Positions 4,781-36,958 of a DNA stretch of 37,024 nt are shown one piece after another. Position numbers and translations under genes: made by a program. Under the pieces are notes generated by a model. It was not told where the DNA came from. It ran no database searches and saw only the letters and a list, made by a program, of their open reading frames with translations. Source of the stretch: a virus; the IMG/VR virus record IMGVR_UViG_3300023443_000734, positions 1-37,024 of that record; one strand, written 5' to 3'. The stretch's first letter is position 1. Each line of letters begins with the position of its first letter.

Positions 4781-5821
4781 ATGGAGCTTCTAATATCAGG
4801 AAATAATTATCAGGGCGTCAAATCTGGCAGTGTGACTTGCTCTATTTCTTCAATAGCAAACTCCTTTAACGCTACTTTAAATAATTTCAGCAAGCAGCAG
4901 ATTTCAAGTATAAAAGCTGGTTTACCCCTATCAATTAAATTTGAAGGTGAATTGGTTCTGACCGGCTACATAGACGCTGTTTCGCCATCCTATGACAATA
5001 GAGAAACTTCAATCTCCATCAAAGGCCGTAGTAAGGCCGGAGATTTAGTTGACTGTACGCTTCCAGAAATAGGGACTGAATGGAAGAAAAAAAATGTAAT
5101 TCAAATTGCTAACATTTGGGGGTCCAGCTTCGGTATTTCTTTTACTGGTGAGAGCGGTTCTCTTATAGAAACTATCAATTACGAATATGGCACAGAGGTA
5201 TTTGAGGCATTAAAAAAGCATACCGAAAAGGAGGGCTTGATCGTTTACTCACTGCCTAATGGAAATTGTTTAATTTCAGTCACAAATATTGGATCAAGTG
5301 GACTAAGTTTTATTGAAGGTCAAAACATAATTTCCTTCGGCGGCGACATCGACCTAAGTAATGTTTTTAGTAGCTATATTGTCAAAGGGTCTGCTCAGAG
5401 TAATTTGCAGCAATCAGAAGAAGAAGCTAGCAATGCGCCCAATGCTGTCTTGAACAATAAAATGAGAAATCGACCGCTTGTAATTATAGCAGATGGCAAT
5501 GCTGATATTGGTGTTTGTAAGAAGCGAGCCGAATTTGAAGAAAAAATAAGAATAGGACAAAGCGAGTCTTACACTGTAGCTGTGCAAGGATGGTTAAGCA
5601 CAACGAACCTTAACAAAACGGCTATTATGGACTTGTCTAATAGCTTTGGCATTAAAAAGACGATGCTAATTTCAGGCATGACGCTATCGGTTAGCGAAGA
5701 CGGGTCCACAACGGAGGTGACCCTGGCCAATACCGAGGCTTTTGTTACGGATCAAACAAAAAAAACGTTAGATAAAAACCCCTATACTCTACAAGAATTT
5801 TTAGAATTGCTCAATCGTTAA
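4781..5821 (+). CDS. Baseplate hub protein (Mu gpP / gp44-like)
   Basis: A 346-residue protein resembling the Mu gpP hub family, the counterpart of T4 gp27. Recognisable features are GYIDAVSPSYDNRETSISIK (near residues 63-82), GRSKAGDLVDCTL and a LKKHTEKEGLIVYSLPNGN segment typical of hub domains. It should form the trimeric hub on which the spike (gp45) sits. The 85-bp gap before it shows no strong signal. The start ATGG follows CCCTTGAG. Confidence 0.85.
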   Translation: MELLISGNNYQGVKSGSVTCSISSIANSFNATLNNFSKQQISSIKAGLPLSIKFEGELVLTGYIDAVSPSYDNRETSISIKGRSKAGDLVDCTLPEIGTEWKKKNVIQIANIWGSSFGISFTGESGSLIETINYEYGTEVFEALKKHTEKEGLIVYSLPNGNCLISVTNIGSSGLSFIEGQNIISFGGDIDLSNVFSSYIVKGSAQSNLQQSEEEASNAPNAVLNNKMRNRPLVIIADGNADIGVCKKRAEFEEKIRIGQSESYTVAVQGWLSTTNLNKTAIMDLSNSFGIKKTMLISGMTLSVSEDGSTTEVTLANTEAFVTDQTKKTLDKNPYTLQEFLELLNR

Positions 5822-6180
5822 ACGAATAAAATTACTTTGGGTTTTCTAACGTTTTCACCGTTTCATTTTAAGAATATAATTACTTTGAGAAATCCAACGT
5901 TTTCACTGTTTCGATTTACGAATAATATTACTTTAAGAAAATTAACGATTTAGGGTTTTCATTTTAAGAAAATATTTACTTTAGATTATTTAACGAATTG
6001 GCCGTTTCATTTTACAAATATTATTACTTTAAGAAATCTAGTGTTTTAGCCGCTGTCGTTTACGAATATAATTACTTTGAATAATTTAACGTTTTCACAA
6101 TTTCAATTTACGAATATTATTACTTTGAGAAATCTAACGTTTTCACCGTTTCGATTTACGAATAAAATTACTTTTACAGA
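5822..6180 (+). repeat. 48-bp repeat block C (about 7 units)
   Basis: This is the longest block: about seven contiguous, more divergent units fill the 381-bp gap between the hub and spike genes. Variants include TTAACGATTTAGGG, TTAACGAATTGGCC and CTAGTGTTTTAGCC, while the AAGAATATTATTACTTT core is kept in most units. No other feature or coding frame was seen in the gap. Confidence 0.9.
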
Positions 6181-10377: not shown

Positions 10378-10746
10378 ATGTCTAGAATAGCAGGTAGGAT
10401 ACCGGGCAGCGGCGGGACAGGCAGCGGCGGGACAGGGTCTTTCCCCGTAGAAGTTTTTAACGGGACCATCAAAAATCTCGTAGTTGCTGACAACCTCAAA
10501 TTTTTTGTCATGGACAATGCGATGGCACAAACTATCTTTGTTCCTGAGAATGTAAACCAAGAGTTTCCTATAGGGGCTGAAATGGAATTCATACGGAATG
10601 GTACCGGATCGGTTACCTTTGTAGAGTTAGGTTCTGTTGATGTCTTCTCTAGAGATTTCCTTTTAAGTATCAACGCACGATATTCTGCGGTTACTCTAAA
10701 GAAAGTAGGGGCAGATGACTGGAGGCTGATAGGGGATCTCGCATGA
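10378..10746 (+). CDS. Tail fibre tip-like protein
   Basis: A 122-residue protein with an N-terminal low-complexity segment containing a GSGGT repeat (residues about 10-20), then a beta-sandwich ending RYSAVTLKKVGADDWRLIGD. That ending (an ARYS...L.KVG...W.L.GDL pattern) is common at the C-terminus of phage fibre proteins, where it forms the trimeric tip. The stop TGA overlaps the next ATG as ATGA. Confidence 0.6.
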   Translation: MSRIAGRIPGSGGTGSGGTGSFPVEVFNGTIKNLVVADNLKFFVMDNAMAQTIFVPENVNQEFPIGAEMEFIRNGTGSVTFVELGSVDVFSRDFLLSINARYSAVTLKKVGADDWRLIGDLA

Positions 10747-11444
10747 TCGGGGTAACTGCCTCACAAGCCTTTGTGCCTAATAAGATTGCTGACTTAATTT
10801 TATGGTTAGAGGCATCTGACATTAGTACGATTATAAACTCTGGTGGATTTGTTTCCGGGTGGAAAGATAAGAGTAAAAACGGGAATAATGCTGCACAGAC
10901 AACAGGAGCGAACCAGCCCACCACAGGAATAGAGACCATCAACGGAGTCAATGCTTTAAAATTTGATGGGATAAATGATTCTTTATTACGTGCAACATTT
11001 ACTGGGGGACAAGTAGCCCAGCCAAACACCATTTTTGTTGTGTGGGAACTGCCTGATTTACCTTTATCAACTACAGGGAAAATGATAGATGGGGGTGCTG
11101 ATCCTTCCAGGCATGTTATCGAAATTTCCACTAATGATAGATGGCAAATGTGGGCGGGTCTTTTTATGTTTGGAACTGTCAGGTTAGAAAACACCCCTTA
11201 TATCACTGCAAGTCTGTTCAATACAACATCATCCGAGGCTTATGTTAATGGCGTACAGGATGTTGACGGAGATGTTGGAGACAGATTTCTAAATGGAATT
11301 TCGATTGCATCGAAGTTTGGTGTGTCTGCTTTTTTAAATGTAAAAATAGGTGAAATTATTATTTACAATAAGGATGTTTCTACTTTGGAAAGACAGCAAG
11401 TGGAGGAATCTTTATCCAACAAATGGGGGGTAGCCTTATCATGA
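10743..11444 (+). CDS. LamG-like fibre/adhesin protein, copy 1
   Basis: A 233-residue protein with the layout of a LamG/concanavalin-like jellyroll domain: LILWLEASDISTI near residue 18, GWKDKSKNGNNAAQTTGANQ, then NGVNALKFDGINDSLLRATF, TIFVVWEL and a final GEIIIYN...LS.KWG. Such domains bind carbohydrate or proteins. Here the protein is probably displayed at the tail tip. The ATGA overlaps on both sides show co-translation with its neighbours. It is nearly identical in its first third to the next gene. Confidence 0.7.
   Translation: MIGVTASQAFVPNKIADLILWLEASDISTIINSGGFVSGWKDKSKNGNNAAQTTGANQPTTGIETINGVNALKFDGINDSLLRATFTGGQVAQPNTIFVVWELPDLPLSTTGKMIDGGADPSRHVIEISTNDRWQMWAGLFMFGTVRLENTPYITASLFNTTSSEAYVNGVQDVDGDVGDRFLNGISIASKFGVSAFLNVKIGEIIIYNKDVSTLERQQVEESLSNKWGVALS
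10799..11002 (+). repeat. 204-bp duplication (partner 11497-11700)
   Basis: Bases 10799-11002 match 11497-11700 at 200 of 204 positions with no gaps (offset 698). The match covers residues about 19-87 of both LamG-like proteins. Outside it the two genes are clearly diverged, which marks either a recent tandem duplication followed by 3' replacement, or gene conversion of the 5' part. Confidence 0.95.
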
Positions 11445-12145
11445 TAGGTGTTGTTGCCTCTCAGGCATTCTCTTCTAATAAATTAGATGATCTATCTTTA
11501 TGGTTAGAGGCATCTGACATTAGTACGATTATAAACTCTGGTGGATTTGTTTCCGGGTGGAAAGATAAGAGTAAAAACGGGAATAATGTTGCACAGACAA
11601 CAGGAGCGAACCAGCCTACCACAGGCATAGAGACCATCAACGGAGTCAATGCTTTAAAATTTGATGGGATAAATGATTTTTTATTACGTGCAACATTTAC
11701 CGGAGGGGCCTTAAGTCAACCGAATACAATTTTTGTTGTGTGGGAACAGTTAGGTAATGCTTCTGGTTTGGGGAAGCTTATAGATGGGGGCATTGGTACT
11801 AATCGACATGTTCTTCAAGTGGATGCCAATGAGGGGTGGCAAGTGTTTGCAGGACTTGTTGTGATTATCGCAGTCGCTGTACCGCAAGATATCCCTTTTA
11901 TACGTTCAGTATTCTTTAATACGACATCTTCTGAAGGTTATCTTAATGGGACACTAGAATTTACAGGGGGGGATGTGGGCCCTCAGAGTTTAAACGGGCT
12001 TACTATTGGAGCAAGATTTGATGGAACTGGTCTTTTCGAAAAGAAAGTAGGCGAAATTATTATATATAACCGTCTTCTTTCTACTCCTGAACGGACAACA
12101 GTAGAACGCTATCTATCCAGTAAATGGGGGATAGCCTTATCATGA
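11441..12145 (+). CDS. LamG-like fibre/adhesin protein, copy 2
   Basis: A 234-residue paralogue of the preceding gene. I choose the ATG at 11441, which overlaps the previous TGA as ATGA and gives an N-terminus (MIGVVASQAF) aligned with copy 1 (MIGVTASQAF). The upstream in-frame ATG at 11423 would read through the end of copy 1. The middle of the protein (roughly residues 90-190) differs strongly from copy 1 while the ends match, as expected for receptor-binding surfaces under diversifying selection. Confidence 0.7.
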   Translation: MIGVVASQAFSSNKLDDLSLWLEASDISTIINSGGFVSGWKDKSKNGNNVAQTTGANQPTTGIETINGVNALKFDGINDFLLRATFTGGALSQPNTIFVVWEQLGNASGLGKLIDGGIGTNRHVLQVDANEGWQVFAGLVVIIAVAVPQDIPFIRSVFFNTTSSEGYLNGTLEFTGGDVGPQSLNGLTIGARFDGTGLFEKKVGEIIIYNRLLSTPERTTVERYLSSKWGIALS

Positions 12146-16464: not shown

Positions 16465-17334
16465 CTAAAAAATATATTTAAGGCCTAACGTGATTGACCT
16501 AATCCACACATCCTCAAATTTATCCCCCAAAACATCAACTCCGAATTCGTTTTCGACATCAACTCCGAATTCGTTTTCGGTTTCCAAATGGCCGTTTATA
16601 AATTTGCCCGCGGACCCGCTGGAAAAACCACCTATGTTGATAAAGGAAAAGTCAAGGCCCAATATCCACCTCTCGTTCAGTAAGTATTCTAAGCCAAAAG
16701 CCAAACGATAAGCTAATTTAGTTGTTGTGTCACTTTCCACAAATGAAGAAAATCCGAGATTTCCTATGCTTGCAGCAGCGTAGGGGCCCACTATAGAGGA
16801 TAACTTATTGACGGCGACTCCGATACCAACCCCCACATAAGGTTTAAATTTGCCTAATATAATCGGTGAAAAATAGGCGTTGACTAAAATTAAATGGGAT
16901 TGAAAGTCAGCAGCGAAGATGTGGTCACTGACCGCGAATTCGTCGTCTAAAGTCGTCCAATTTATATCTGTCGTCCAATCCATATCCCCACCTAGGTTGT
17001 AATAGGCCAGGTCAAAGCGCCATTTATCTGATAGCAACCAGCCAACCTCAGCCCCTACTACGTGAGAAAGGTTAAGATCATTATTATAGATTGATCCGGC
17101 AAAAATTGATCCGTCATAAGCGCGCCCCGCGTCAGAATCGCCATTTTTTGGCGAACCGAATACACTGTCTGCAGAACCACCAAAAATCCCGATATAAAAA
17201 GTATTAGCTTCTTTAGCAACTACTGTGTTTACAAATAAAAAGGATGACGCTAAGGTCACGATTATCGTTACTATTTTCATTGCTGATAGGAATTTGATTT
17301 TTATATATACCGGGACTATCAGTTGGTTGGTCAT
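16465..17334 (-). CDS. Outer-membrane beta-barrel protein
   Basis: A 289-residue porin-like protein. A signal peptide (MKIVTIIVTLASSFLFVNTV, cleavage after VVA) begins at the in-frame ATG at 17280. The ATG at 17334 overlaps the upstream TGA as ATGA and would add 18 residues, so either start is possible. Alternating aromatic/Gly strands (YIGIFGG; KFKPYVGVGIGVAVN; FGLEYLLNERWILGLDFSF) and the C-terminal Phe of LGLKYIF are typical of OmpA/Lom-type barrels. Phage barrels can alter the host surface and block superinfection. A 24-bp tandem duplication (16531-16578) repeats EFGVDVEN. Confidence 0.8.
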   Translation of the reverse strand: MTNQLIVPVYIKIKFLSAMKIVTIIVTLASSFLFVNTVVAKEANTFYIGIFGGSADSVFGSPKNGDSDAGRAYDGSIFAGSIYNNDLNLSHVVGAEVGWLLSDKWRFDLAYYNLGGDMDWTTDINWTTLDDEFAVSDHIFAADFQSHLILVNAYFSPIILGKFKPYVGVGIGVAVNKLSSIVGPYAAASIGNLGFSSFVESDTTTKLAYRLAFGLEYLLNERWILGLDFSFINIGGFSSGSAGKFINGHLETENEFGVDVENEFGVDVLGDKFEDVWIRSITLGLKYIF

Positions 17335-17699: not shown

Positions 17700-17719
17700 T
17701 GGCTATAGGGTTTTGTAGT

Positions 17720-17763
17720 TATGAAAATTACTTTGAGAAATCTAACGTTTTCACCGTTTCAGT
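17720..17763 (+). repeat. 48-bp repeat block D (one unit)
   Basis: A single unit in plus orientation, opposite to the surrounding genes. It overlaps the 3' end of the leftward gene 17728-18063: the last codons of that gene (ETVKTLDFSK and the stop) are read from the antisense strand of the repeat. This suggests the repeat inserted into, and rewrote, the gene end. Confidence 0.8.
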
Positions 17764-18063
17764 TAGTCTTTTATTAATTTCTTTTCCTTCATAATCGAAG
17801 TACAAATTATAAAAGTCATAGTAGAGTTCATAGGAGCTTGATCTATTGTTGGTGGAATTATACCAGGGTTGTTTTGTTAACCAGTCGTCAAATTTTTCCC
17901 GAACTCTGCCCCCGCTCGCAAGCCGATCCTGCCAAGTGGTTTTTGTTGCTTGCTCTAACCACTTGGCATTGTCCGTTTCCCAGTTTTTAAACTGCTTAGT
18001 TTGCGGGAGGGCTTTCAGGTAGGCTTTAATAGCCGCTTCTTGTTCTTTAGTGAGTTGAGTCAT
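17728..18063 (-). CDS. WL/WY-motif family protein
   Basis: A 111-residue member of the unrecognised paralogous family in this block. It shows all family marks: the opening MTQLTKEQEAAIKAYLKAL, QFKNWE (family EFKDW), then FDDWLTKQPWYN near residues 58-69 and an aromatic C-terminal helix (YYDFYNLYFDY). The C-terminus is encoded by a 48-bp repeat. The first 17 bases overlap the next upstream gene end. Function unknown. Confidence 0.65.
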   Translation of the reverse strand: MTQLTKEQEAAIKAYLKALPQTKQFKNWETDNAKWLEQATKTTWQDRLASGGRVREKFDDWLTKQPWYNSTNNRSSSYELYYDFYNLYFDYEGKEINKRLTETVKTLDFSK

Positions 18064-18334
18064 TGTTTACATTGGATAGTTCAAACGCGGCGTCTTTATG
18101 TATTTCTGGGTCGTACCAGTCAAGGTTTTTGAGCTTGCTCTTAAATTCTGAATTGGAGGTCATCCAAGCTTTGTATAATGTCGAAAAGGTCTTCCGCATT
18201 TTTTTATTATCAAACGACTTCTTGAAGATCGTCATTGTCCTTTGATAAGCAATCAGACTTTTTTTTGTTTCTAAAAAATTGTCGGGGAAGCAGGTTTTGA
18301 CGTCTGCGACTTGTGTTGGGGTTAGTTGAGTCAT
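18047..18334 (-). CDS. WL/WY-motif family protein, divergent
   Basis: A 95-residue protein with the family opening MTQLTPTQVADVKTCF and the late motif FKSKLKNLDWYDPEIH. The middle EFKDW element is not evident. Basic and helical; no other recognisable domain. It overlaps the start of the following gene by 17 bases, typical of one transcript. Confidence 0.6.
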   Translation of the reverse strand: MTQLTPTQVADVKTCFPDNFLETKKSLIAYQRTMTIFKKSFDNKKMRKTFSTLYKAWMTSNSEFKSKLKNLDWYDPEIHKDAAFELSNVNNDSTH

Positions 18335-18365
18335 GGGTTAGTCGTTCTATTTCTTATCTATAGGG

Positions 18366-18716
18366 TTACCTTAGGTTCAGTGGGTCAAAAATGAAGCTCA
18401 AGAAGAGGTCTGACACAGCCGCGGCGTGTTTTTCCTTTTCATACCAGCCCTGTTTTCTGAGATTGTGATTAAAACGGCGTTTGAGAGCTGCAGTGGCCTT
18501 GTCCGCATTGGTACTGAAAGCTTTCATTATCGTCCATACCTGGGCGCACCTGTTATCATCATACTGATCCATTTGAACCGCAGTCTTCCAGTCCTTTTCA
18601 GCAGCATAACAGGACTTCAGGGCTTCCTTTAATTTCAAGAAACCGGCCTCTTTTTTCAAAATTTCTAAGCAGGCCATTGTCTGCACTTTTTGCGCTTTAT
18701 TTAGGGTATGGATCAT
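18366..18716 (-). CDS. WL/WY-motif family protein, divergent
   Basis: A 116-residue protein: MIHTLNKAQKVQTMACLEIL at the start, and RFNHNLRKQGWYEKEKHAA near residues 86-104, equivalent to the family's WL...WY region, followed by LFLSFIFDPL. Start ATG overlaps the sulfotransferase-like stop as ATGA. No known domain. Confidence 0.6.
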   Translation of the reverse strand: MIHTLNKAQKVQTMACLEILKKEAGFLKLKEALKSCYAAEKDWKTAVQMDQYDDNRCAQVWTIMKAFSTNADKATAALKRRFNHNLRKQGWYEKEKHAAAVSDLFLSFIFDPLNLR

Positions 18717-19327
18717 AGGTTTTTTATTGGGTAAAAATAGTTTACGTCCCGGGCTTTATCTATCTTTAAAGCAAGAGATTTGTAGGTTTCTCTTATAGTC
18801 ATTTCGTAAGGATGATTTTTGATAAGACTTTTACGTTCTCGGTATTCAGGAAGTTTAACCTTTATTTCTAAATAATCACTCAATTCTTCAAGTATTCCTG
18901 AATCCCACATCGTCTCATACCTCAAAGCCATAAAAGGGAAAGATTGCTTTTTATACCAGAGATCAAAACTCTTTTCTAGCTCTAAAGTGTCTTCAGGGAA
19001 CAGCGAGTTATTCATTTTAAATCTACTCGAACATAGGTTATAGCTATGATTAATTCCCCATTCATTAATCATTCTATGGGACGATATGACTATTTCAAAA
19101 GGGCTGCCAAAAAGAAATACCACTTTCACTGTTTTATTAAAAGACTCAGGGGGTCTATCGTGGGTCTTATAGACTCCTGTAACGATTTGATCAGGGCCTT
19201 CGAATCTTCTAAGCATGCCCCTTCTGGGAACTAGGCTTCGGTAAAGGATAGTGGTTCCACATCTCCCTAGTCCTGCGATTATTGTGGGATAAGATACATT
19301 GGGCTTGAATAGGTTTTTAAATTTCAT
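18713..19327 (-). CDS. Sulfotransferase-like protein
   Basis: A 204-residue protein resembling P-loop sulfotransferases. PTIIAGLGRCGTTILYRSL (residues 14-32) is the 5'-phosphosulfate-binding loop, with KTHD near residue 54 and VVFLFGSPFEIVISSHRMI near 69-87, the position of the family's RNP..V.S 3'-phosphate motif, though here it is degenerate. It may transfer sulfate from PAPS to a surface sugar or protein. That fits a phage that also encodes outer-membrane proteins, but the substrate is unknown. Confidence 0.65.
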   Translation of the reverse strand: MKFKNLFKPNVSYPTIIAGLGRCGTTILYRSLVPRRGMLRRFEGPDQIVTGVYKTHDRPPESFNKTVKVVFLFGSPFEIVISSHRMINEWGINHSYNLCSSRFKMNNSLFPEDTLELEKSFDLWYKKQSFPFMALRYETMWDSGILEELSDYLEIKVKLPEYRERKSLIKNHPYEMTIRETYKSLALKIDKARDVNYFYPIKNL

Positions 19328-19340
19328 CTCTGACTTTCTT

Positions 19341-19460
19341 TCATTTTAAGAATAAAATTACTTTAAGAAATCCAACGTTTTCACTGTTTTATTTTAAGAA
19401 TAATATTACTTTGAATAATCTAACGTTTTGGCCGTTTCAGTTTACGAATATTATTACTTT
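19341..19460 (+). repeat. 48-bp repeat block E (about 2.5 units)
   Basis: Two and a half contiguous units in plus orientation lie upstream of the leftward sulfotransferase-like gene, in the gap 19328-19514. The end TTTACGAATATTATTACTTT is a truncated unit. Nothing else was seen in the gap. Confidence 0.85.
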
Positions 19461-19514
19461 TCTAGCCCTGTTTTCTGATCAGAAACATAAAAAGGTTTTC
19501 TTGACTCTCTTAAA

Positions 19515-19559
19515 TTAGGCTTTAATGGCCTCGGTTTGTTCTTCGGTTAGTTCATCCAT
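19515..19559 (-). pseudogene. Orphan start module of the LTxEQ family
   Basis: A 14-codon frame, MDELTEEQTEAIKA then stop, exactly reproduces the opening shared by the neighbouring family genes (LTEEQ...IKAY). It follows the normal leader CCAACCAACATAACA and stops where the rest of a gene would begin. It is either a tiny expressed peptide or the remnant of a gene whose body was lost, with repeat block E now in its place. Confidence 0.55.
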
Positions 19560-19578
19560 TGTTATGTTGGTTGGTGGG

Positions 19579-19989
19579 CTATTTTGGACTATCCATGGCC
19601 GCCCGCACCAAATCTATGACCTTCTGCCACTCCTTATGTGTGAACTCCAGCGGCGCCAGCGGCCCAAAAGGCAGCGTCTTCTCCAGTGCCTTATGTAGTG
19701 CCTTATGTAGTGCCTTATGCAGTGCCTTATGCAGTGCCTTCTCCAGTGCCTGCTGCGCCTCATCCCGAGCTTGCCGTGAATGATCCGCGTTTTCCAGATC
19801 CATGTTCAGAGCCTCCTGGATTTCGTCTTTGTCTTCGTCCTGTGCCTGCTGTGCCTCGTGCAGAGCCTGCCGTGAATGATCCACGTTTACCAGGTCTGTG
19901 TCCAGGGCCTCCTGAGTTTCGATCAGATTCTGCTGCGCCTCGTCCAGGGCCTTGTCGGTTTCTTCGTATTTTTCAGTGAGTTGAGTCAT
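19579..19989 (-). CDS. Coiled-coil protein with ALHK repeats
   Basis: A 136-residue acidic coiled-coil protein starting MTQLTEKYEETDKALDEAQ. It contains two DHSRQAxxEAQQA units and then an ALHK tetrapeptide repeated four times, encoded by a 12-bp tandem repeat. A short C-terminal domain follows (EFTHKEWQKVIDLVRAAM). GC content is well above the neighbourhood. Repeat number could vary by slippage in 4-residue steps. Function unknown. Confidence 0.6.
   Translation of the reverse strand: MTQLTEKYEETDKALDEAQQNLIETQEALDTDLVNVDHSRQALHEAQQAQDEDKDEIQEALNMDLENADHSRQARDEAQQALEKALHKALHKALHKALHKALEKTLPFGPLAPLEFTHKEWQKVIDLVRAAMDSPK
19685..19756 (-). repeat. 12-bp tandem repeat (six units)
   Basis: AGTGCCTTATGT-type units (plus-strand reading) repeat six times with single-base changes, encoding ALHK/ALEK on the minus strand. 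In-frame tandem repeats like this are prone to length change. Confidence 0.9.
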
Positions 19990-20038
19990 TGTTATATTGG
20001 GTTAGTTTGGTTGTATTATTTGTAATTCTGTTTGGTGT

Positions 20039-20869
20039 TTAGCATTTTTTCCCCAACCCGTATTTGTCGAGTCCCTGCGAAAGTTCTTCGACCTTCCTAC
20101 TCGATAGCGGTTTACTCGAAGAATCGGGCTTAACCTTTGAGTTATTCAAGGATGGATCCGGCGCAATTGGTTGCCTTGTTTTTTGTTGCATCCAGCTTGC
20201 CATCTTCTGACCGGTTTCTTCGGTAATACGGAAGCTTTCGTTTTCAAATAGCCCTGTACGGTCTTTATCAGCTGTAGCGTTGTGTTTAATATCAAGATCA
20301 AAAACTGTTGTAAATTCGTGTTCTGTCCCGGTTCGGAAAATAGGCGTAAGCCCCACCTTGCTGACTGTTGTTCTGCCGTTTTCATTCCTTTCTACGACAT
20401 ACTCTATTTTCGAGCGTAGACAAACAATAACGTGAATATCACTTTGTAAGATGGCAAAAAGAATCGAGTTAAAATTCTCTATAGCTCGCCCCCAGTTTCC
20501 GAATTGATTACCCCGACTATCAAGCTGGGACTTTAAATCAAGAGCCGCTTGATAGAAATGGGATGCACTATCAATTACAACCAGGTCGTAGTTTTTTTCG
20601 ACGGCTTCATTTATAGGAGTTATGAATTTGTTCTTTTCTAGAAATGGCGGATCTATTGCGAGTACGTCAAAATCAAATCGATCGCTATAAAGCGAAGAGC
20701 TCTTGTTTTCTGTGTCTAGGTAGGCAATGCGACCTTGCTCGCCTACAATGCCACGCGCCAGCCTTAGGGCCGACATTGTTTTGCCCGCGCCAGCAACGCC
20801 AGTGATTGCCAGCTTTAGTTTGACGATTTGCCTAGTTGCTTTCTTGAAGATAGCGTTATTTTTTATCAT
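20039..20869 (-). CDS. RecA/Sak4-like AAA ATPase
   Basis: A 276-residue phage ATPase. Walker A is GVAGAGKT (residues 24-31), with AYLDTENKSS following as in RecA-like folds, and Walker B is YDLVVIDS (94-101). This layout fits the phage AAA/Sak4 group (PF13479-like), single-strand annealing or recombination ATPases. It probably works with the RecE-like exonuclease in the same operon to repair or recombine phage DNA. The C-terminal 50 residues are Ser/Pro/Lys-rich. Confidence 0.8.
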   Translation of the reverse strand: MIKNNAIFKKATRQIVKLKLAITGVAGAGKTMSALRLARGIVGEQGRIAYLDTENKSSSLYSDRFDFDVLAIDPPFLEKNKFITPINEAVEKNYDLVVIDSASHFYQAALDLKSQLDSRGNQFGNWGRAIENFNSILFAILQSDIHVIVCLRSKIEYVVERNENGRTTVSKVGLTPIFRTGTEHEFTTVFDLDIKHNATADKDRTGLFENESFRITEETGQKMASWMQQKTRQPIAPDPSLNNSKVKPDSSSKPLSSRKVEELSQGLDKYGLGKKC

Positions 20870-21225
20870 GGTGTTTCCTTTGGGTTGTTTTCCTTTGGGT
20901 TATTAATAGGGTCTTTATTTTTACAGTGCTTACGTATGAAGTCCCAGAAGGTATTTAAGATTTTATTATCCCATGCGCTTAGTTTGTGTCTTTCATGGTA
21001 CCAGTATTGTTCATCTAGCCAGTTATTAAAATTTTCATCGATTTTATTTGCCTTGCTTTCCAGCTCCCTTTCGGCTTTTTCTAACGGATCTTCAATCGGC
21101 CACAGAGGCAGAAGCTTATCTACCACCCCACGAGCCGTTTTATAGTCCTTGAATTCGGCCGTGTGTTTGATGCTTTCGAAGTAGTCCTTAATGGACTTTT
21201 CTAGGTATTTGTTTAATTCAGTCAC
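20866..21225 (-). CDS. WL/WY-motif family protein
   Basis: A 119-residue family member with all marks: EFKDYKTARG near residue 24, FNNWLDEQYWYHERH near 65-79 and NTFWDFIRKH near 90-99. The C-terminus is a short repeat, NNPKENNPKETP, whose DNA also repeats the AAAGGAAA ribosome-binding segment of the downstream ATPase. Stop overlaps the ATPase ATG as ATGA. Confidence 0.65.
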   Translation of the reverse strand: MTELNKYLEKSIKDYFESIKHTAEFKDYKTARGVVDKLLPLWPIEDPLEKAERELESKANKIDENFNNWLDEQYWYHERHKLSAWDNKILNTFWDFIRKHCKNKDPINNPKENNPKETP

Positions 21226-21841
21226 GGTATTTTGTTTTATTTAATTGTTCTTTTATTGCTTCTGCGGACGCCTTGACCTGTTTCTTCCGCGCCGCGACTA
21301 GTTTATCCCACGCCGTTCCCAGTTTCTCCTGCGCCTTAGCCTGGGTGTCCCGCGGCGCGTCCCATGCCGCGTCCCGTTCCTCCCACGCCTTCTCCAGGGC
21401 CTCCCACGTAGAGTCCATAGGGTTACCTTGGGTTTTCTGGGCCAGTTTCTCCCGTGTCGTCTTGTCCACGTCCTTCCGCGCCTTCTCCAGGGCCTTGATC
21501 ACGGCCTGCTTTTTTATAGCTATAGTATCCCACGCCGTTCCCAGTTTCACCCGCGCATGCCGCAGTTTCTCCCACGCCACGTCTGGTGCCTCCTGATGCG
21601 CCATGTCTACGGCCTTCTGGGCCTCGTACGCGTCCTCCTGCGCCTCGTCCCGTTCCTTCTCCAACGCCTTGAACACGGCCTTCTGGGCCTCGTCCAGTTT
21701 CTTACACGCCTCGTCCAGTTTCTCCCACGTCTTCTGGCCCAGGGCCAGTTCCTCCCACGCCGTGGCTAATGCCGCCCGCGCGGTGGACACAGCCGGAGCG
21801 GACTGGGCGGATTCTTCTTGTTCTTTAGTTAGTTGATTCAT
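21218..21841 (-). CDS. Ala/Trp/Glu-rich coiled-coil protein
   Basis: A 207-residue, almost wholly helical protein. It opens MNQLTKEQEESAQ like the family and then consists of degenerate heptad-like units around AWEKL, DEAQ, KALEKARKD and LGTAWD (two copies of KLGTAWD). GC content is high with a biased third position, unlike adjacent AT-rich genes. Ribosome binding site AAGGAAACATAATG is clear. It may be a structural or scaffold-like coil; no known family. Confidence 0.6.
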   Translation of the reverse strand: MNQLTKEQEESAQSAPAVSTARAALATAWEELALGQKTWEKLDEACKKLDEAQKAVFKALEKERDEAQEDAYEAQKAVDMAHQEAPDVAWEKLRHARVKLGTAWDTIAIKKQAVIKALEKARKDVDKTTREKLAQKTQGNPMDSTWEALEKAWEERDAAWDAPRDTQAKAQEKLGTAWDKLVAARKKQVKASAEAIKEQLNKTKYRD

Positions 21842-21891
21842 TATGTTTCCTTATTATCATTGGACTTTATAGCTTTCTATTGACCGAGACT

Positions 21892-22476
21892 TTACCTCAT
21901 TAATTCCAATTGTAGTCTTTCGATTTCCTTTTGCGTAGCAGCAAGACGTTTTTTTGCATCACTGAAGGCTTTTTGCTTTTTCAGGGCCGCGGCCCGTTCA
22001 TACCTCAGTTGTTGCAGTTGTGCTTCCGTTTTAAGAACCTGGGCTTGGATTTCCGCTACTTCCTTCTCGTTGATTAGGGCACCCTCGGCCACGGCAATTT
22101 TTTCTTCTAGAACTGCCTTTAGTTTGGCTTCTTCAACGCGCTTTTGGTCGACTGCCCGACGGTGTATGCGCTCCTGGGAGATTCTTTCCTGCTCATTACG
22201 CTCTTTGACGTCCTCGGAGTACCCCAACAACCCACCGACGGCCGCGCCTGCTCCCGCTTCCCCACTTTGGTGTCCAACAAGGCCCCCTAAGACTGAGCCT
22301 ATGACAGTGCCAACAGCAGCCCCCTGCGAGGTATTCGATTGAGGCATGGTGGTACTGCACCCGACCCCATTGAAAAGCAACAATGCTCCTAAAAATCCTT
22401 TAAAAGACCGCTTTAAATTTTTCACTGTGATACAATTTGGGACCGTTAATGATTGTGTTTCCTTTAGTTCATTCAT
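21892..22476 (-). CDS. Glycine-zipper lipoprotein
   Basis: A 194-residue putative lipoprotein. Within the N-terminus, VKNLKRSFKGFLGALLLFNG is a signal sequence ending in the lipobox-like GVGC; an alternative GTG start at 22425 would begin exactly there. It is followed by a glycine zipper (AAVGTVIGSVLGGLVGHQSG, then GAGAAVGGLLGY), as in the 17-kDa surface antigen family, and a long coiled coil (about residues 85-190). It should sit in the outer membrane facing the periplasm. Roles in envelope modification or lysis are possible. Confidence 0.75.
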   Translation of the reverse strand: MNELKETQSLTVPNCITVKNLKRSFKGFLGALLLFNGVGCSTTMPQSNTSQGAAVGTVIGSVLGGLVGHQSGEAGAGAAVGGLLGYSEDVKERNEQERISQERIHRRAVDQKRVEEAKLKAVLEEKIAVAEGALINEKEVAEIQAQVLKTEAQLQQLRYERAAALKKQKAFSDAKKRLAATQKEIERLQLELMR

Positions 22477-22505
22477 TGTGTTTCCTTTCGTTTTTGTTGA
22501 TTAAA

Positions 22506-22808
22506 TTAATATAAAGCTTTAATAAACTCTTCCAAGACAGTCTTCTTGTATGAAGGTTGTGTTTTGATACGTTCCACATACCAGGATTCCTTTGCGACCG
22601 TGCTCTGAAATTTTTTCCAGACCTTATCCCAGGACTTCGCTACGGATTTCTTCTTTTTACACACGGCCACAAACGCGTCGTTTTTCTTGATTTCACATCT
22701 TTTGCGCTCCAGGTCCAGGTCGTCCTCGGCCTTTTCGTAGTCCTTAAATTCCGACGAGTGTTTTATGTTTTTGAACTGTAATTTCAGTGCGTCGGTTATG
22801 TGCTTCAT
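22506..22808 (-). CDS. WL/WY-motif family protein
   Basis: A 100-residue protein from ATG 22808, which overlaps the upstream TGA as ATGA; a GTG at 22814 is less likely. Family marks: SEFKDYEKAE near residue 20, FQSTVAKESWYVERI near 67-81 and VLEEFIKALY at the end. Lys/Cys-rich middle. Unknown function. Confidence 0.6.
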   Translation of the reverse strand: MKHITDALKLQFKNIKHSSEFKDYEKAEDDLDLERKRCEIKKNDAFVAVCKKKKSVAKSWDKVWKKFQSTVAKESWYVERIKTQPSYKKTVLEEFIKALY

Positions 22809-22930
22809 TTCCACTCCTCGTATAGAGTTTCTTTATTGAACTCATCCCAAAATTCCTCTAGGGCCTCATTCTCGCGGGTTTTATGGTAGTCTATCACGGC
22901 CTCCTCTTGTTCTTCAGTCAGTTTTTTCAT
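22805..22930 (-). CDS. 41-residue LTxEQ-family protein
   Basis: A small gene between two ATGA overlaps. It reads MKKLTEEQEEAVIDYHKTR, then ENEALEEFWDEFNKETLY and EEWK. It has the family opening followed by an acidic helix, and looks like a shortened member lacking the middle EFKDW and WY parts. Coupling on both sides (stop with 22808, start with stop of 22927) supports translation. Confidence 0.55.
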   Translation of the reverse strand: MKKLTEEQEEAVIDYHKTRENEALEEFWDEFNKETLYEEWK

Positions 22931-23253
22931 TGTGTTTCCTTGGTTTTAGTGGGTTTGGATAAATCTAGGGTCTTCCGCACCTCCCGCACCTTATGTAGTA
23001 CCTTCCAGGCCTCATCCTCGACCGCCCACGTTTTATGCAGTGCCGACCACGCCACGTTGCGCCTTATCCAGTGCTTTATGCTGCGCCTCCCCGGCCACCT
23101 CCGCCCCCACCGTACCTCATGTAGCACCGACCGAGCCTGCTTCAGTATATCCCAGGCGTTATCCTCAGCCTCCCACGCCTCATGAAGTACCTCACAGGCG
23201 TTGTCTATGGCCTTATCTAGGGACTTTGCTTGTTCTTCAGTTGGTTGAGTCAT
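22927..23253 (-). CDS. Trp/Arg-rich coiled-coil protein
   Basis: A 108-residue protein opening MTQPTEEQAKSLDKAID, then two similar halves: EAWEAEDNAWDILKQARSVL and TWAVEDEAWKVLHKVREVR, joined by a basic Trp/Arg segment. It is GC-rich like 21218-21841 and 19579-19989, and I group the three as coiled-coil relatives sharing the same start module. Function unknown. Confidence 0.55.
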   Translation of the reverse strand: MTQPTEEQAKSLDKAIDNACEVLHEAWEAEDNAWDILKQARSVLHEVRWGRRWPGRRSIKHWIRRNVAWSALHKTWAVEDEAWKVLHKVREVRKTLDLSKPTKTKETQ

Positions 23254-23273
23254 TGTGCCTTATCCCGCGCTAT

Positions 23274-23642
23274 TCACGCCTTTTCATGGTTACAATTTAT
23301 TAGGTACTCCTTTATAAAGTCCCAGAAGAGTTTTCCGGCTTTCATTTCGTATTTTATAAATAAAGGCGCGACCACATACCAGGGTCGTCGTTCTAATCCC
23401 CGGTCAAATTTTATTCTGAATAGATTCCACGTCTTTTCCAGCTCCTTTGTGGCCTTCTCCCAAGCGACTCCATACTCTCTTTCGACTTTATACTGTGACT
23501 TTTCCACCTCCTCCAGTACTATATGAGCCGCTTTAAGGTCCTTAAATTCCTGTGAGAGCTTGATTTGTTCGTAGTAACCTTGTGCGCACTCATCTATGAG
23601 CCTAGCCGTTGCCTGTGCTTTGTTAGGGTTTTCTTTATGCAT
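23274..23642 (-). CDS. WL/WY-motif family protein
   Basis: A 122-residue protein. The opening differs (MHKENPNKAQATARLIDECA) but EFKDLKAAHIVLEEVE near residue 33, FDRGLERRPWYV near 80-91 and KLFWDFIKEYL near 104-114 mark it as a family member. The C-terminal aromatic helix is nearly the same as in 20866-21225 (FWDFI). Function unknown. Confidence 0.65.
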   Translation of the reverse strand: MHKENPNKAQATARLIDECAQGYYEQIKLSQEFKDLKAAHIVLEEVEKSQYKVEREYGVAWEKATKELEKTWNLFRIKFDRGLERRPWYVVAPLFIKYEMKAGKLFWDFIKEYLINCNHEKA

Positions 23643-23681
23643 TGTTATGTTGGTTTAGGGGTTAGTCGTTTAAATTTTCGG

Positions 23682-23945
23682 TCATTTTTTAATTTCATTC
23701 CACCAGAGTGCAAAGGCAGTTCCGCGATTTCCTGCTTCAAGATCGTTTGTCCTAAAACACCACGTTTTTTTATTAAGCCATTGATCAAAGTTGTTCCATA
23801 TTTTTATCCATTCTCTGGAGCTGGGGCCCGCACCGGATTGCTTCCATTGCTTTTTCCAGTCCTTAAACTCATTGGTTTGCTTGAGGGTTTCCAAGTAGGC
23901 TTTAATTTCCGTTACTTGTTCTTCGGTGAGTTGATTGTCATTCAT
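23682..23945 (-). CDS. WL/WY-motif family protein, first gene of leftward operon
   Basis: An 87-residue protein: MNDNQLTEEQVTEIKAYLET, NEFKDWKKQW near residue 24, FDQWLNKKTWCF near 53-64 and ALWWNEIKK at the end. WY is replaced by WC. Strong leader AAAAAGGAAACACAATG. It is the promoter-proximal gene of the leftward block, so it should be among the first products made. Confidence 0.65.
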   Translation of the reverse strand: MNDNQLTEEQVTEIKAYLETLKQTNEFKDWKKQWKQSGAGPSSREWIKIWNNFDQWLNKKTWCFRTNDLEAGNRGTAFALWWNEIKK

Positions 23946-26088: not shown

Positions 26089-26484
26089 ATGGGAGAATGG
26101 AGTAAAGGTTCGAGTGTAACGATAGCTGCTGTCTCAGTCGTTGTTTTGATTTTTGCGGGCGCAATGGTTTGGAAAATGCCCGAAGAAATTAAAAAATTAA
26201 GCAGTACCCAGGCTGTTTTGACAGAACGATTGGGCGCCTTAACTGATCAAAATAAAGAACAATCTATTAGTTTAAAAAATCTTAGCAATAACCAGGCTGT
26301 TTTGACAGAACGATTGGGCGCCCTGGCTAATCAAAATATTGAACAATCTATTAGTTTAAAAAATCTTAACAATAAGATGGACGTAATCACAGAATCTGGC
26401 GTACGTATGAGTGTTTCAATGGATTATCTCAAAGATAGTATTAAAGATTTAGTGGATCAAGTAACCTATGAAAACAACTACTGA
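26089..26484 (+). CDS. Membrane-anchored coiled-coil protein with 28-residue repeats
   Basis: A 131-residue protein: an N-terminal membrane anchor (VTIAAVSVVVLIFAGAMVW, residues 10-28), then two almost identical 28-residue repeats (QAVLTERLGAL plus QNxEQSISLKNL; 84-bp DNA period from about 26199), then a helix. Four heptads per repeat indicate a rod-like coil projecting from the membrane. Its location before the terminase genes allows a lysis (XhlA- or spanin-like) or superinfection role. Function inferred only. Confidence 0.6.
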   Translation: MGEWSKGSSVTIAAVSVVVLIFAGAMVWKMPEEIKKLSSTQAVLTERLGALTDQNKEQSISLKNLSNNQAVLTERLGALANQNIEQSISLKNLNNKMDVITESGVRMSVSMDYLKDSIKDLVDQVTYENNY

Positions 26485-29067: not shown

Positions 29068-29147
29068 CCGTTTCATTTTACGAATATTATTACTTTGAGA
29101 AATCTAACGTTTTCACTATTTTCATTTACGAATATTATTACTTTGAA
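29067..29147 (+). repeat. 48-bp repeat block F (about 1.7 units)
   Basis: Repeat sequence fills the whole gap between the large terminase and portal genes. It provides or abuts the terminase stop codon (GTTTAG) and ends ACTTTGAAATG, with the portal ATG immediately after the conserved ACTTTGA. Confidence 0.9.
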
Positions 29148-31134: not shown

Positions 31135-31333
31135 TTTTGAATAATCTAACGTTTTAGCTATTTAATTTTAAGAATATTATTACTTTAAGAAAATTAACGT
31201 TTTTACTGTTTCAGTTTAAGAATAAATTTACTTTAAGAAATCTGACGTTTTCACCGTTTCATTTTAGGAATATAATTACTTTGGGTTTTCTAACGTTTTA
31301 GCCTTTTAATTTTAAGAATATTATTACTTTGAG
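31135..31333 (+). repeat. 48-bp repeat block G (about 4 units)
   Basis: Four contiguous units in plus orientation fill the gap from the minor head protein to the prohead protease. The final unit runs into the protease gene, whose TTG start lies inside the conserved ACTTTGAGA element. Confidence 0.9.
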
Positions 31334-31994
31334 AATCAAGAGTTTTAGAAATTTTAAGATAAAAGAGTTCTCGGAAGACGGAAAAATAGGGGGCCATGGA
31401 GTAATTTTTGAGAACAGAGACTCAGACCTTGACATTGTGGATTCAACTGCATTTGATAAAATGGCCGAAAAATTAGCTTCGGCCCCGCTCCCGATGCTTT
31501 GGCAACACAATACCAGTAGTCCCATTGGCCTCTGGGAAAAGATTACCAAGGACCTGAAGGGTCTGTTCTTTGATGGTAGAATTATAAGCGAGATTGAAAA
31601 GGGCAGAGAGGCTATAATACTTGTAAAAAACAAAGTCATAAACGGGCTTTCATTTGGAGGTTTAGTTAAGAGTTCACACTTCGACAAAGAAAGGCAGGCC
31701 AATATCCTGACAGAAATCGAACTCAAAGAGGTTTCGCTAGTCACGTTCCCAGCCAACCCACTGGCCGTGTTCTCGTCCAAATCAAAAAAGGAAATTGCAG
31801 AATTTAAGAGAATTTTAGAACATACTTTGCGCGATGCAGGTTTAACTAAAGAGGAAGCCATGACAGTAATTTCGAGTGGCGTTCAATCATTGTTTAAGAG
31901 CGATTGCGATGATCCAGATGAAAACAGTGATTTAATAAAAATAATGGATGAGGCTATTATCTCGTCTAAAATAGAATTGTTAAATTACACATAA
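31329..31994 (+). CDS. Prohead protease (S78/HK97 family)
   Basis: A 221-residue serine protease (PF04586). Catalytic-type motifs: LPMLWQHN (H60), GLSFGG near 106-111 and ELKEVSLVTFPANP (S136). It processes the capsid and itself during maturation. No ATG is available near the family N-terminus, so the TTG at 31329, inside a 48-bp repeat, is the best start. The 3' part (residues 155-221) is helical and may act as a scaffold. Confidence 0.88.
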   Translation: MRIKSFRNFKIKEFSEDGKIGGHGVIFENRDSDLDIVDSTAFDKMAEKLASAPLPMLWQHNTSSPIGLWEKITKDLKGLFFDGRIISEIEKGREAIILVKNKVINGLSFGGLVKSSHFDKERQANILTEIELKEVSLVTFPANPLAVFSSKSKKEIAEFKRILEHTLRDAGLTKEEAMTVISSGVQSLFKSDCDDPDENSDLIKIMDEAIISSKIELLNYT

Positions 31995-34289: not shown

Positions 34290-34654
34290 TGAAGCTAAGG
34301 GGCATTGGAAAACTTCGCCACTTAGTCATATTCCAGAAGCGCGTGGAGGTGCCAGATGTAGCAGATGGGGCCAGTATTACTACAAGCTATGAGGACGTAT
34401 TGAAGACCCGCTGTTTAATAGAGTCCCTTACAGATCGTGACTATTACCTAGACAGGAATATAGAAGAAAAAGCAACCCATAAAATAACGGTTCGCTATAG
34501 GGTAGAGATTAAGCATTCAGGACTTATTGATTTTGCCTTGATTAATGGCGTAAAATATCAAATTAACGGCAGTCAAAAGCTTGAGGAACGGAATCGATTT
34601 ATTAAATTTGTGGTTACAGAACTAGGCCAAGAATCCGAATACGAAGATATCTAA
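34289..34654 (+). CDS. Head closure / head-tail joining protein
   Basis: A 121-residue protein of the head-tail joining group (PF05521, SPP1 gp16-like): GIGKLRHLVIFQKRVEVPD near the start, and KITVRYRVEIKHSGLIDFAL with NGVKYQINGSQKLEERNRFI. The start ATG overlaps the connector stop by one base. Confidence 0.82.
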   Translation: MKLRGIGKLRHLVIFQKRVEVPDVADGASITTSYEDVLKTRCLIESLTDRDYYLDRNIEEKATHKITVRYRVEIKHSGLIDFALINGVKYQINGSQKLEERNRFIKFVVTELGQESEYEDI

Positions 34655-34755
34655 AGTAATAATATTCTTAAACTGAAACAGTGAAAACGTCAGATTATCT
34701 AAAGTAATAATATTCTTAAAACGAAACGGCCAAAACGTTAGATTTCTTAAAGTAA
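34653..34755 (-). repeat. 48-bp repeat block H, inverted (about 2 units)
   Basis: Two units in the opposite orientation to blocks A-G: the plus strand reads AAAGTAATAATATTCTTAAA, then GAAAACGTCAGATT. The block abuts the stop of the joining gene and the ATG of the gp10-like gene (TTAAAGTAAATGG). Confidence 0.9.
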
Positions 34756-35187
34756 ATGGCCTCTGTTGATTTTAAAATTAAAGGAAATATAGCTAAAGAC
34801 TTGAAAAAGGCAGGGATTCGGACTGTTAAAAAAGTTGACAAAGCCCTTAAAAAAGGGGCAATTCTTGTACAAGGCCATGCGACAGTTAATATTCAGCAAG
34901 GGAAAAGGAGTGGGCAGATTAATCCCAGGAAAAAGCGGGGGCGTAGGTCTGCCAGGCATGAGTACCCCAAGACAGATACCGGGTTTCTGGTGCGTTCTAT
35001 CAGGACAAAGAGCCTGAAATTTGGGGAATATCAAATCGGGTCTAATCTTGAATACGCCGCGATCCTTGAAAGTAAAGACCCATTGCACGGCGGTCGGCCT
35101 TTCTTAACTAGAGCCTTGAAAGAAAAAAGTAATCAGATAGATTCTCTCTTAAAAAAGGCAGTTAGATCAGCTTTTAGAAAAGGATAA
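34756..35187 (+). CDS. HK97 gp10-like neck/tail completion protein
   Basis: A 143-residue basic protein of the HK97 gp10-like group. The N-terminal helix (KDLKKAGIRTVKKVDKALKK) is followed by GHATVNIQQGKRSGQINPRK, then TGFLVRSIRTK, YAAILESKDPLHGGRPFL and a C-terminal helix. It sits between head and tail genes as expected and completes the neck. Start directly after an inverted 48-bp repeat. Confidence 0.8.
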   Translation: MASVDFKIKGNIAKDLKKAGIRTVKKVDKALKKGAILVQGHATVNIQQGKRSGQINPRKKRGRRSARHEYPKTDTGFLVRSIRTKSLKFGEYQIGSNLEYAAILESKDPLHGGRPFLTRALKEKSNQIDSLLKKAVRSAFRKG

Positions 35188-35325
35188 ACGTCAGATTTCT
35201 CAAAGTAATATTATTCTTAAAATTAAACGGTGAAAACGTTAGAAAACCCAAAGTAATAATATTCTTAAAATTAAACGGTGAAAACGTTGGATTTCTTAAA
35301 GTAATAATATTCTTAAAAAGTAACC
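35187..35325 (-). repeat. 48-bp repeat block I, inverted (about 3 units)
   Basis: Three contiguous inverted units (AAACGTCAGATTTCTCAAAG, AACGTTAGAAAACCCAAAG, AACGTTGGATTTCTTAAAG) lie between the gp10-like and tail terminator genes. The gp10-like stop TAA (35185-35187) lies at the edge of the first unit. Confidence 0.9.
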
Positions 35326-36157: not shown

Positions 36158-36958
36158 ATGGCAATAACATTTAATCAATACGACGTAACCAACAGGGTTC
36201 CCGGTAGCTTTATAGAATTCGACCCATCGCGGGCCATCACAGGACTTGCAAGTGTTCCCTTCAGGGCGCTTTTATTCGGGCAGTTCGATGAGAGCGTGAC
36301 GACTACTACGCCGAACGTCCCTATACCAGTTGGAAGCTTCGGTGAGGCTAAGACTCTATTTGGAGCGGGCAGCCAACTTACTGACATGTTTGATTATTTT
36401 TATCTAAATAATTCCAACATAGAAACCTGGGGGATGCCTCTCTCAGATACAGGGGGTACAGCAGCTGAAAAGACGATTACCGTAACTGCTGCAACAACTG
36501 AGGGCGGTGTAATTGCATTAAACGTTGGCGGCCGGTCTGTTCGTGTAACGGTTGAACCCTCAGTTATTGATGCTGCAATTACTATTGCAGCATCAATTGA
36601 AACTGCAATAAATGCGAATCCGGACCTACTCTTTTCTACCACAGTAGCAGGAACCAATGTAGTTACCCTTACAGCAAAAAACGGAGGAGAGTGGACGGAA
36701 GAGATTCCTCTAGAAGTAAACTATAGAAACGCAGAAATCGGAGGGAGTGAAGTTCTTCCGGTTGGAGTTGATTTGGCTTTTGCAACTTCGGTGGCTGGCT
36801 TAGTCAATACAGACCTGGGGGATGCCCTAGATGCAATTCTTGACGAAGTTTTTAACTATTTTGTCTTGCCCTTTAATGATGATGCAAATTTGCTCAAGGT
36901 AGCTACTGAGGCCGATCTTCGTCAGGCTGTCCCAGATCAGTTAGAGGGGCATTGGTTC
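36158..36958 (+). CDS. Tail sheath protein, N-terminal part (Mu gpL-like)
   Basis: The 5' part of the sheath gene, continuing at base 1 of the window through the 62-base overlap. The start (FNQYDVTNRVPGSFIEFDPS, then GLASVPFRALLFGQFD) is characteristic of Mu gpL-like sheaths; the middle has an inserted beta-domain (about 100-200: KTITVTAATTEGGVIALNVG). Codons after 36958 come from the chimeric tail and should be ignored. Confidence 0.9.

Follow-up and report, generated by a model that had tools for sequence, protein, structure and literature searches.

The DNA analysed here is the whole virus record IMGVR_UViG_3300023443_000734, a window of 37,024 bases in which a leftward block of genes runs from position 23,945 to about 12,400. 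Between 17,728 and 23,945, this block contains a cluster of small open reading frames (ORFs), seven of which (17728, 18047, 18366, 20866, 22506, 23274 and 23682, named after their leftmost coordinates) were described in a sequence-only reading as one diverged and clustered family of WL/WY proteins. All seven ORFs are present on the minus strand at the positions given in Table 1, and the existence of a single family is borne out by pairwise alignments, profile scores and a shared motif. The family is real, new and lineage-specific, and it is composed of probably four-helix proteins.

Five genes (17728, 20866, 22506, 23274 and 23682) constitute the core of the family and, on sequence comparison, are paralogues beyond doubt. 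In Smith–Waterman alignments, nine of the ten core pairs beat all 300 shuffles, the pair 17728/22506 being weak (6/300), and the alignment of 23682 with 17728 reached a z of 12.6. Moreover, when a hidden Markov model (HMM) built from four core genes was compared with the fifth, each was recovered at 35.7–51.2 bits (E 3e-14 to 2e-9), the highest score among 500 shuffles per core gene being 11.6 bits. The core HMM also scored 15.1 bits against 18366, a value reached by none of 2000 shuffles, and this gene is a probable member. The score of 5.7 bits against 18047 was reached by 82 of 2000 shuffles (4%) and is not significant on sequence alone; thus, this gene is assigned tentatively, by its motif, its start and its predicted fold. 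Identity among the copies is 21–38%. Every one of the seven proteins carries the pattern F...[LV]....W[YC], which is absent from the other window proteins tested and turns up in 0.2% of the family proteins once shuffled, a figure that describes the family, since members were picked partly by this pattern, while the profile scores constitute the independent test. The remaining sub-patterns that had been claimed for the family are weaker: LTxEQ...IKxY is complete in 17728 and 23682 only, EFKD[WYL] (or QFKNW) occurs in five members, and an ending of the FWDFI type is clear in two or three.

Structure prediction points in the same direction. An AlphaFold (AF2) model of 20866 with three siblings (predicted local distance difference test score, pLDDT, 80.8) contains helices at residues 2–19, 23–41, 45–72 and 85–101 and has the WY pair in a short turn that connects helices 3 and 4. 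The model of 18366, obtained with 18047 alone (pLDDT 82.6), contains helices at residues 7–20, 24–48, 54–87 and 94–109, and its WY pair (residues 91–92) is likewise located between helices 3 and 4. Because the two inputs, which consist of disjoint members and share no sequence, led to an identical helix layout, the models support, without proving, one predicted fold for the whole family, doubtful members included; this agreement in helix order and WY position was judged by layout rather than by coordinate superposition, and small helical proteins may agree by chance.

Table 1. Members of the WL/WY family, related fragments, neighbouring genes and repeats in the window.
Feature	Coordinates	Strand	Description	Motifs and evidence
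23682, core member	23682..23945	minus	87 aa, first leftward gene	NQLTEEQ..IKAYL, NEFKDW, FDQWLNKKTWC; leave-one-out HMM E 1.3e-9
23274, core member	23274..23642	minus	122 aa	QEFKDL, FDRGLERRPWY, LFWDFIKEYL; leave-one-out HMM E 1.5e-10
22506, core member	22506..22808	minus	100 aa from ATG 22808	SEFKDY, FQSTVAKESWY; leave-one-out HMM E 9.2e-10
20866, core member	20866..21225	minus	119 aa, GTG start	AEFKDY, FNNWLDEQYWY, TFWDFIRK; leave-one-out HMM E 3.2e-14
17728, core member	17728..18063	minus	111 aa	QLTKEQ..IKAYL, KQFKNW, FDDWLTKQPWY; leave-one-out HMM E 1.8e-9
18366, probable member	18366..18716	minus	116 aa	FNHNLRKQGWY
18047, tentative member	18047..18334	minus	95 aa	MTQLTPTQ, FKSKLKNLDWY; motif in register and shared start
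Mini-ORF, probable shortened copy	22805..22930	minus	41 aa (MKKLTEEQEEAVIDY...EEFWDEFNKETLYEEWK), strong ribosome-binding site (RBS)	direct-repeat family D3; stop overlaps 22506 start
Truncated family start, probable remnant	19515..19559	minus	14 codons, MDELTEEQTEAIKA followed by a stop	direct repeats D3 and D17, translation, start-region alignment
Coiled-coil gene, non-member	19579..19989	minus	MTQLTE start	internal 96-nt and 12-nt repeats
Coiled-coil gene, non-member	21218..21841	minus	MNQLTKEQ start	heptad-like repeats
Coiled-coil gene, non-member	22927..23253	minus	MTQPTEEQ start	
Sak4-like / phrog_1366 recombination ATPase, non-member	20039..20869	minus	cluster neighbour	PHROG 1366 E 4e-65; PHROG 124 (Sak4-like) E 8.5e-14
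Exonuclease VIII-like (RecE-like) gene	14534		leftward block	
Resolvase-like gene	13489		leftward block	PHROG 190
Outer membrane beta-barrel gene	16465-17334		leftward block	OMP_b-brl E 6e-8; weak Rickettsia Adr-like match
Glycine-zipper protein, YiaD-like	21892		leftward block	
48-nt repeat sites	1186-1480, 1954-2000, 5819-6174, 17709-17756, 19339-19460, 29077-29118, 31143-31335, 34648-34770, 35180-35320	both orientations		

The family proteins have masses of 10–15 kDa and mostly basic isoelectric points. No transmembrane-grade stretch is present in any member (no 19-residue window has a mean hydropathy above 1.1), and no signal peptide is apparent by eye, a judgement made without a dedicated predictor, the N-termini being charged and devoid of hydrophobic stretches. 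They are best read as soluble proteins. The Pfam, PHROGs, NCBIfam and PADLOC profiles, including those for structural, replication, lysis and defence functions and for known phage anti-defence families, gave no family match for the set, in line with the earlier statement that no known family fits. Neither unrelated folds nor a match of the set to a housekeeping family, the two outcomes named beforehand as speaking against a common family, was found. Searches of the PDB by sequence returned nothing credible, the match to MWFE (E 0.075) being only a coincidence of the WY motif, and a fold search of the PDB and BFVD with the models returned nothing below E 0.5. Similarly, tblastn against phages (17728, 20866, 22506 and 23274) or plasmids (20866) gave no match, or E 0.02 at best, judged to be chance. 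Scans of IMG/VR, in which a single member, the alignment and two patterns of DNA motifs served as queries, revealed no relative, the best pattern matches (15–16 bits in large ORF sets) being attributed to chance, and none was found in GTDB species genomes scanned with the alignment; these collection scans require exact short peptide or DNA matches, and the collections may omit records close to the window. A search for kin phages through TerL gave at best 36–37% identity among the matches listed, with no early genes in common, and closer kin may exist.

Two known protein families show partial likeness to members. The 22506 protein matches the PRK11027/MaoP models of NCBIfam (E 8.5e-6) and DUF413 (PF04219; E 8e-4, 19.7 bits, 19.6 in six-frame translation, under the curated cut-off of 25 bits), and E. 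coli MaoP scores 19.1 bits against it, above all 40000 shuffles (best 11.0). This local similarity involves 57 residues at 25% identity (positions 22584–22724), whereas none of the siblings of 22506 exceeds 0.7 bits with E. coli MaoP and a four-member profile gave an unconvincing hhalign probability of 7.6. The sub-cut-off score and the absence of likeness in siblings speak against membership of the MaoP/DUF413 family, and the resemblance is a lead on the 22506 copy alone that could reflect chance, convergence or a recombined segment. As for CpxP, Spy, ZraP and CnrX, helical hairpin proteins with a hooked four-helix fold, these proteins share with the phage family a helix start of the LTxxQ type, and CnrX is a recurrent fold neighbour of both models, although never a significant one (TMq mostly 0.34–0.46, E 0.6–4). 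However, they are periplasmic, and membership was rejected since the LTXXQ (PF07813) and Metal_resist (PF13801) profiles have no match in the window at E 10 and no export signal is apparent.

A simple, recent tandem duplication does not account for the array, since the two closest genes, 17728 and 23682, stand at the two extremes of the cluster and the five-member tree groups 20866, 22506 and 23274 (support 91). Identical residues are frequently encoded by different codons between copies, and nonsynonymous divergence (dN), calculated by the Nei–Gojobori method (NG86), is lower than synonymous divergence (dS) in every pair in which both are estimable, most dS values being near saturation. These values show that the protein has long been under constraint, which leaves room for positive selection at individual sites. 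Therefore, the earlier description of fast-diverging arms-race genes holds as regards divergence and clustering, whereas rapid adaptive change is unsupported, with dN/dS below 1 wherever measurable.

Additional fragments of family sequence accompany the seven genes. The mini-ORF at 22805..22930 scores 8.1 bits against the core HMM, which is not significant, and judged by its sequence it is probably an internally shortened copy with the common start. Its stop overlaps an ATG at 22808 (ATGA), which is more likely to be the start of 22506 than the GTG at 22814, from which the protein would have 102 residues. The truncated start at 19515..19559, in which TAA stands where the copies have TAC, is a probable remnant of another copy. 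Three coiled-coil genes share only the M.QLTEEQ start with the family, and their HMM scores rule them out as WL/WY members; those at 21218–21841 and 19579–19989 are built from slippage-type repeats (21-nt, 12-nt and 96-nt units), and the 21–22 kb bin stands out from its surroundings by a GC content of about 0.52 and a strong AT skew. Start similarity is a feature of leftward genes in general (mean pair identity 0.403, shuffled 0.359; 0.327 and 0.315, respectively, for rightward genes), and this likeness may be partly convergent, LT.EQ being an ordinary helix-capping motif. Moreover, a 48-nt unit (about TTTAAGAATATTATTACTTTAAGAAATCTAACGTTTTCACCGTTTCAT) occurs approximately 26 times genome-wide, single or in tandem and nearly always intergenic, and the last 12 or so residues of 17728 (..TETVKTLDFSK) are read from the copy at 17715. 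As a possible host tag, the exact core of this repeat was scanned against IMG/VR and GTDB, where no other record contained it. Further repetition is observed elsewhere in the window, namely an 84-nt tandem repeat at 26189–26394 within a coiled-coil-like ORF (26089–26484) upstream of a methyltransferase gene. In addition, the overlapping rightward ORFs 10743–11444 and 11423–12145 form a paralogous pair in which both match positions 375–626 of PHROG 10356 (virion protein), and starts like theirs continue into 12124.

The rightward genes, including those for terminase, portal, capsid, sheath and a Mu-type baseplate, identify a contractile-tailed phage (myovirus). Since the first 62 bases (1–62) are repeated exactly at 36897–36958, with a stray 66-bp end beyond, and the tail sheath gene is divided between the record ends (PHROG 165 positions 1–264 at the right end and 251–493 at the left end), the record amounts to an essentially complete, circular or permuted genome of about 36.9 kb. 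Among the proteins scanned, a subset of the ORFs, none was recognised as an integrase. The leftward genes are tightly packed, so that neighbours overlap or almost touch, with ATGA stop/start overlaps in the pairs 20866/Sak4-like gene, mini-ORF/22506 and 18713/18366. As had been noted earlier, the family is interleaved with recombination and membrane genes, the Sak4-type ATPase and the glycine-zipper protein lying among its members, and it is headed by a promoter-proximal member, 23682, which adjoins a divergent intergenic region. The block forms a polycistronic operon that, judging by its position and because recombination genes sit in it too, is probably transcribed early. The beta-barrel gene at 16465–17334 contains an exact 24-nt tandem duplication.

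Because of the position, size and solubility of the proteins and the absence of structural or replication matches, their likeliest role, proposed here tentatively, is that of early host-directed accessory proteins that would bind host targets in counter-defence or takeover, a ranking that draws on what is generally known of early regions in phages. Early phage genes that are small, variable and not conserved commonly serve in host interaction; in tailed phages, anti-defence loci and the host-takeover module of SPO1 are examples of such small genes for takeover or counter-defence. The array resembles these loci in encoding small, variable and soluble proteins in an operon that is probably early and also contains recombination genes, and differs from them in containing multiple copies of one fold without any sequence relative. 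Ancient duplications, followed by some decay and by re-shuffling of ends, would have generated seven or more copies. The leftward operon would then supply small soluble four-helix bundles whose hydrophobic core is most likely made up of the conserved aromatics (the F of EFKD, the F...L....WY at the end of helix 3 and the aromatic helix 4), leaving the remaining surface free to vary. As infection begins, such proteins might attach to host proteins and either block or redirect them, every copy having a target or variant of its own. Several points weigh against this role: known counter-defence genes are usually unrelated neighbours and not seven copies of one fold; NG86 detected no positive selection between copies; no orthologues were found in related phages, so no gain, loss or rapid change is seen; and promoter-like sites in the region are no commoner than in shuffles. 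An arms race is possible.

An alternative, which is unlikely, is that the proteins are small helical mediators serving the phage's own Sak4-like ATPase and RecE-like exonuclease, as UvsY serves UvsX in phage T4. Like them, T4 UvsY is a small helical protein encoded beside a recombinase gene; 20866 is probably translationally coupled to the Sak4-like gene because of the ATGA overlap, the exonuclease VIII-like and resolvase-like genes belong to the same operon, and UvsY appears among the weak fold neighbours of the 18366 model, far from significance (E 3.3, TM 0.41). However, UvsY and annealing partners were matched neither in sequence nor, at a significant level, in fold, and a single mediator, encoded by one gene in T4, needs no seven diverged copies. 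It is also rather doubtful that a repeat-prone genome merely duplicates and lets decay its gene segments, the copies being mostly redundant or on their way to being lost. Such non-adaptive expansion would be in keeping with the tandem and dispersed repeats across operon and genome, the truncated and apparently shortened copies, the repeat-derived tail of 17728 and the occurrence of the same start on unrelated coiled-coil bodies, but most copies are full-length and keep the aromatic pattern and the predicted fold despite their low identity, and the differing codons for identical residues together with dN below dS indicate that selection has kept the protein. There is a slim chance that the locus acts as a diversity array, in which the common start (RBS region and M.QLTEEQ codons) and the dispersed repeats would offer homology to the Sak4/RecE-type recombination of the phage, which would reshuffle bodies behind that start and so go on generating new early effectors of both the WL/WY-bundle and the coiled-coil type. 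Superinfection exclusion, which the sequence-only reading had suggested, or another action at the envelope together with the glycine-zipper protein and the outer membrane barrel is improbable: both operon neighbours are envelope-type proteins, but the members themselves lack hydrophobic stretches of transmembrane grade and any visible signal peptide, and neither of the profiles LTXXQ and Metal_resist gives a match at E 10. Finally, a nucleoid-associated family related to MaoP is highly improbable, given that the similarity of 22506, which does exceed its shuffles, is short and does not extend to its siblings.

The WL/WY proteins represent a compact fold family covered by none of the libraries searched. 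If their targets are defence or regulatory proteins of the host, a single small phage would provide seven natural scaffold variants whose target specificity could be compared; if instead they are partners in recombination, or by-products of a repeat-prone genome, they would equally be a caution against the default arms-race reading of clustered paralogues.

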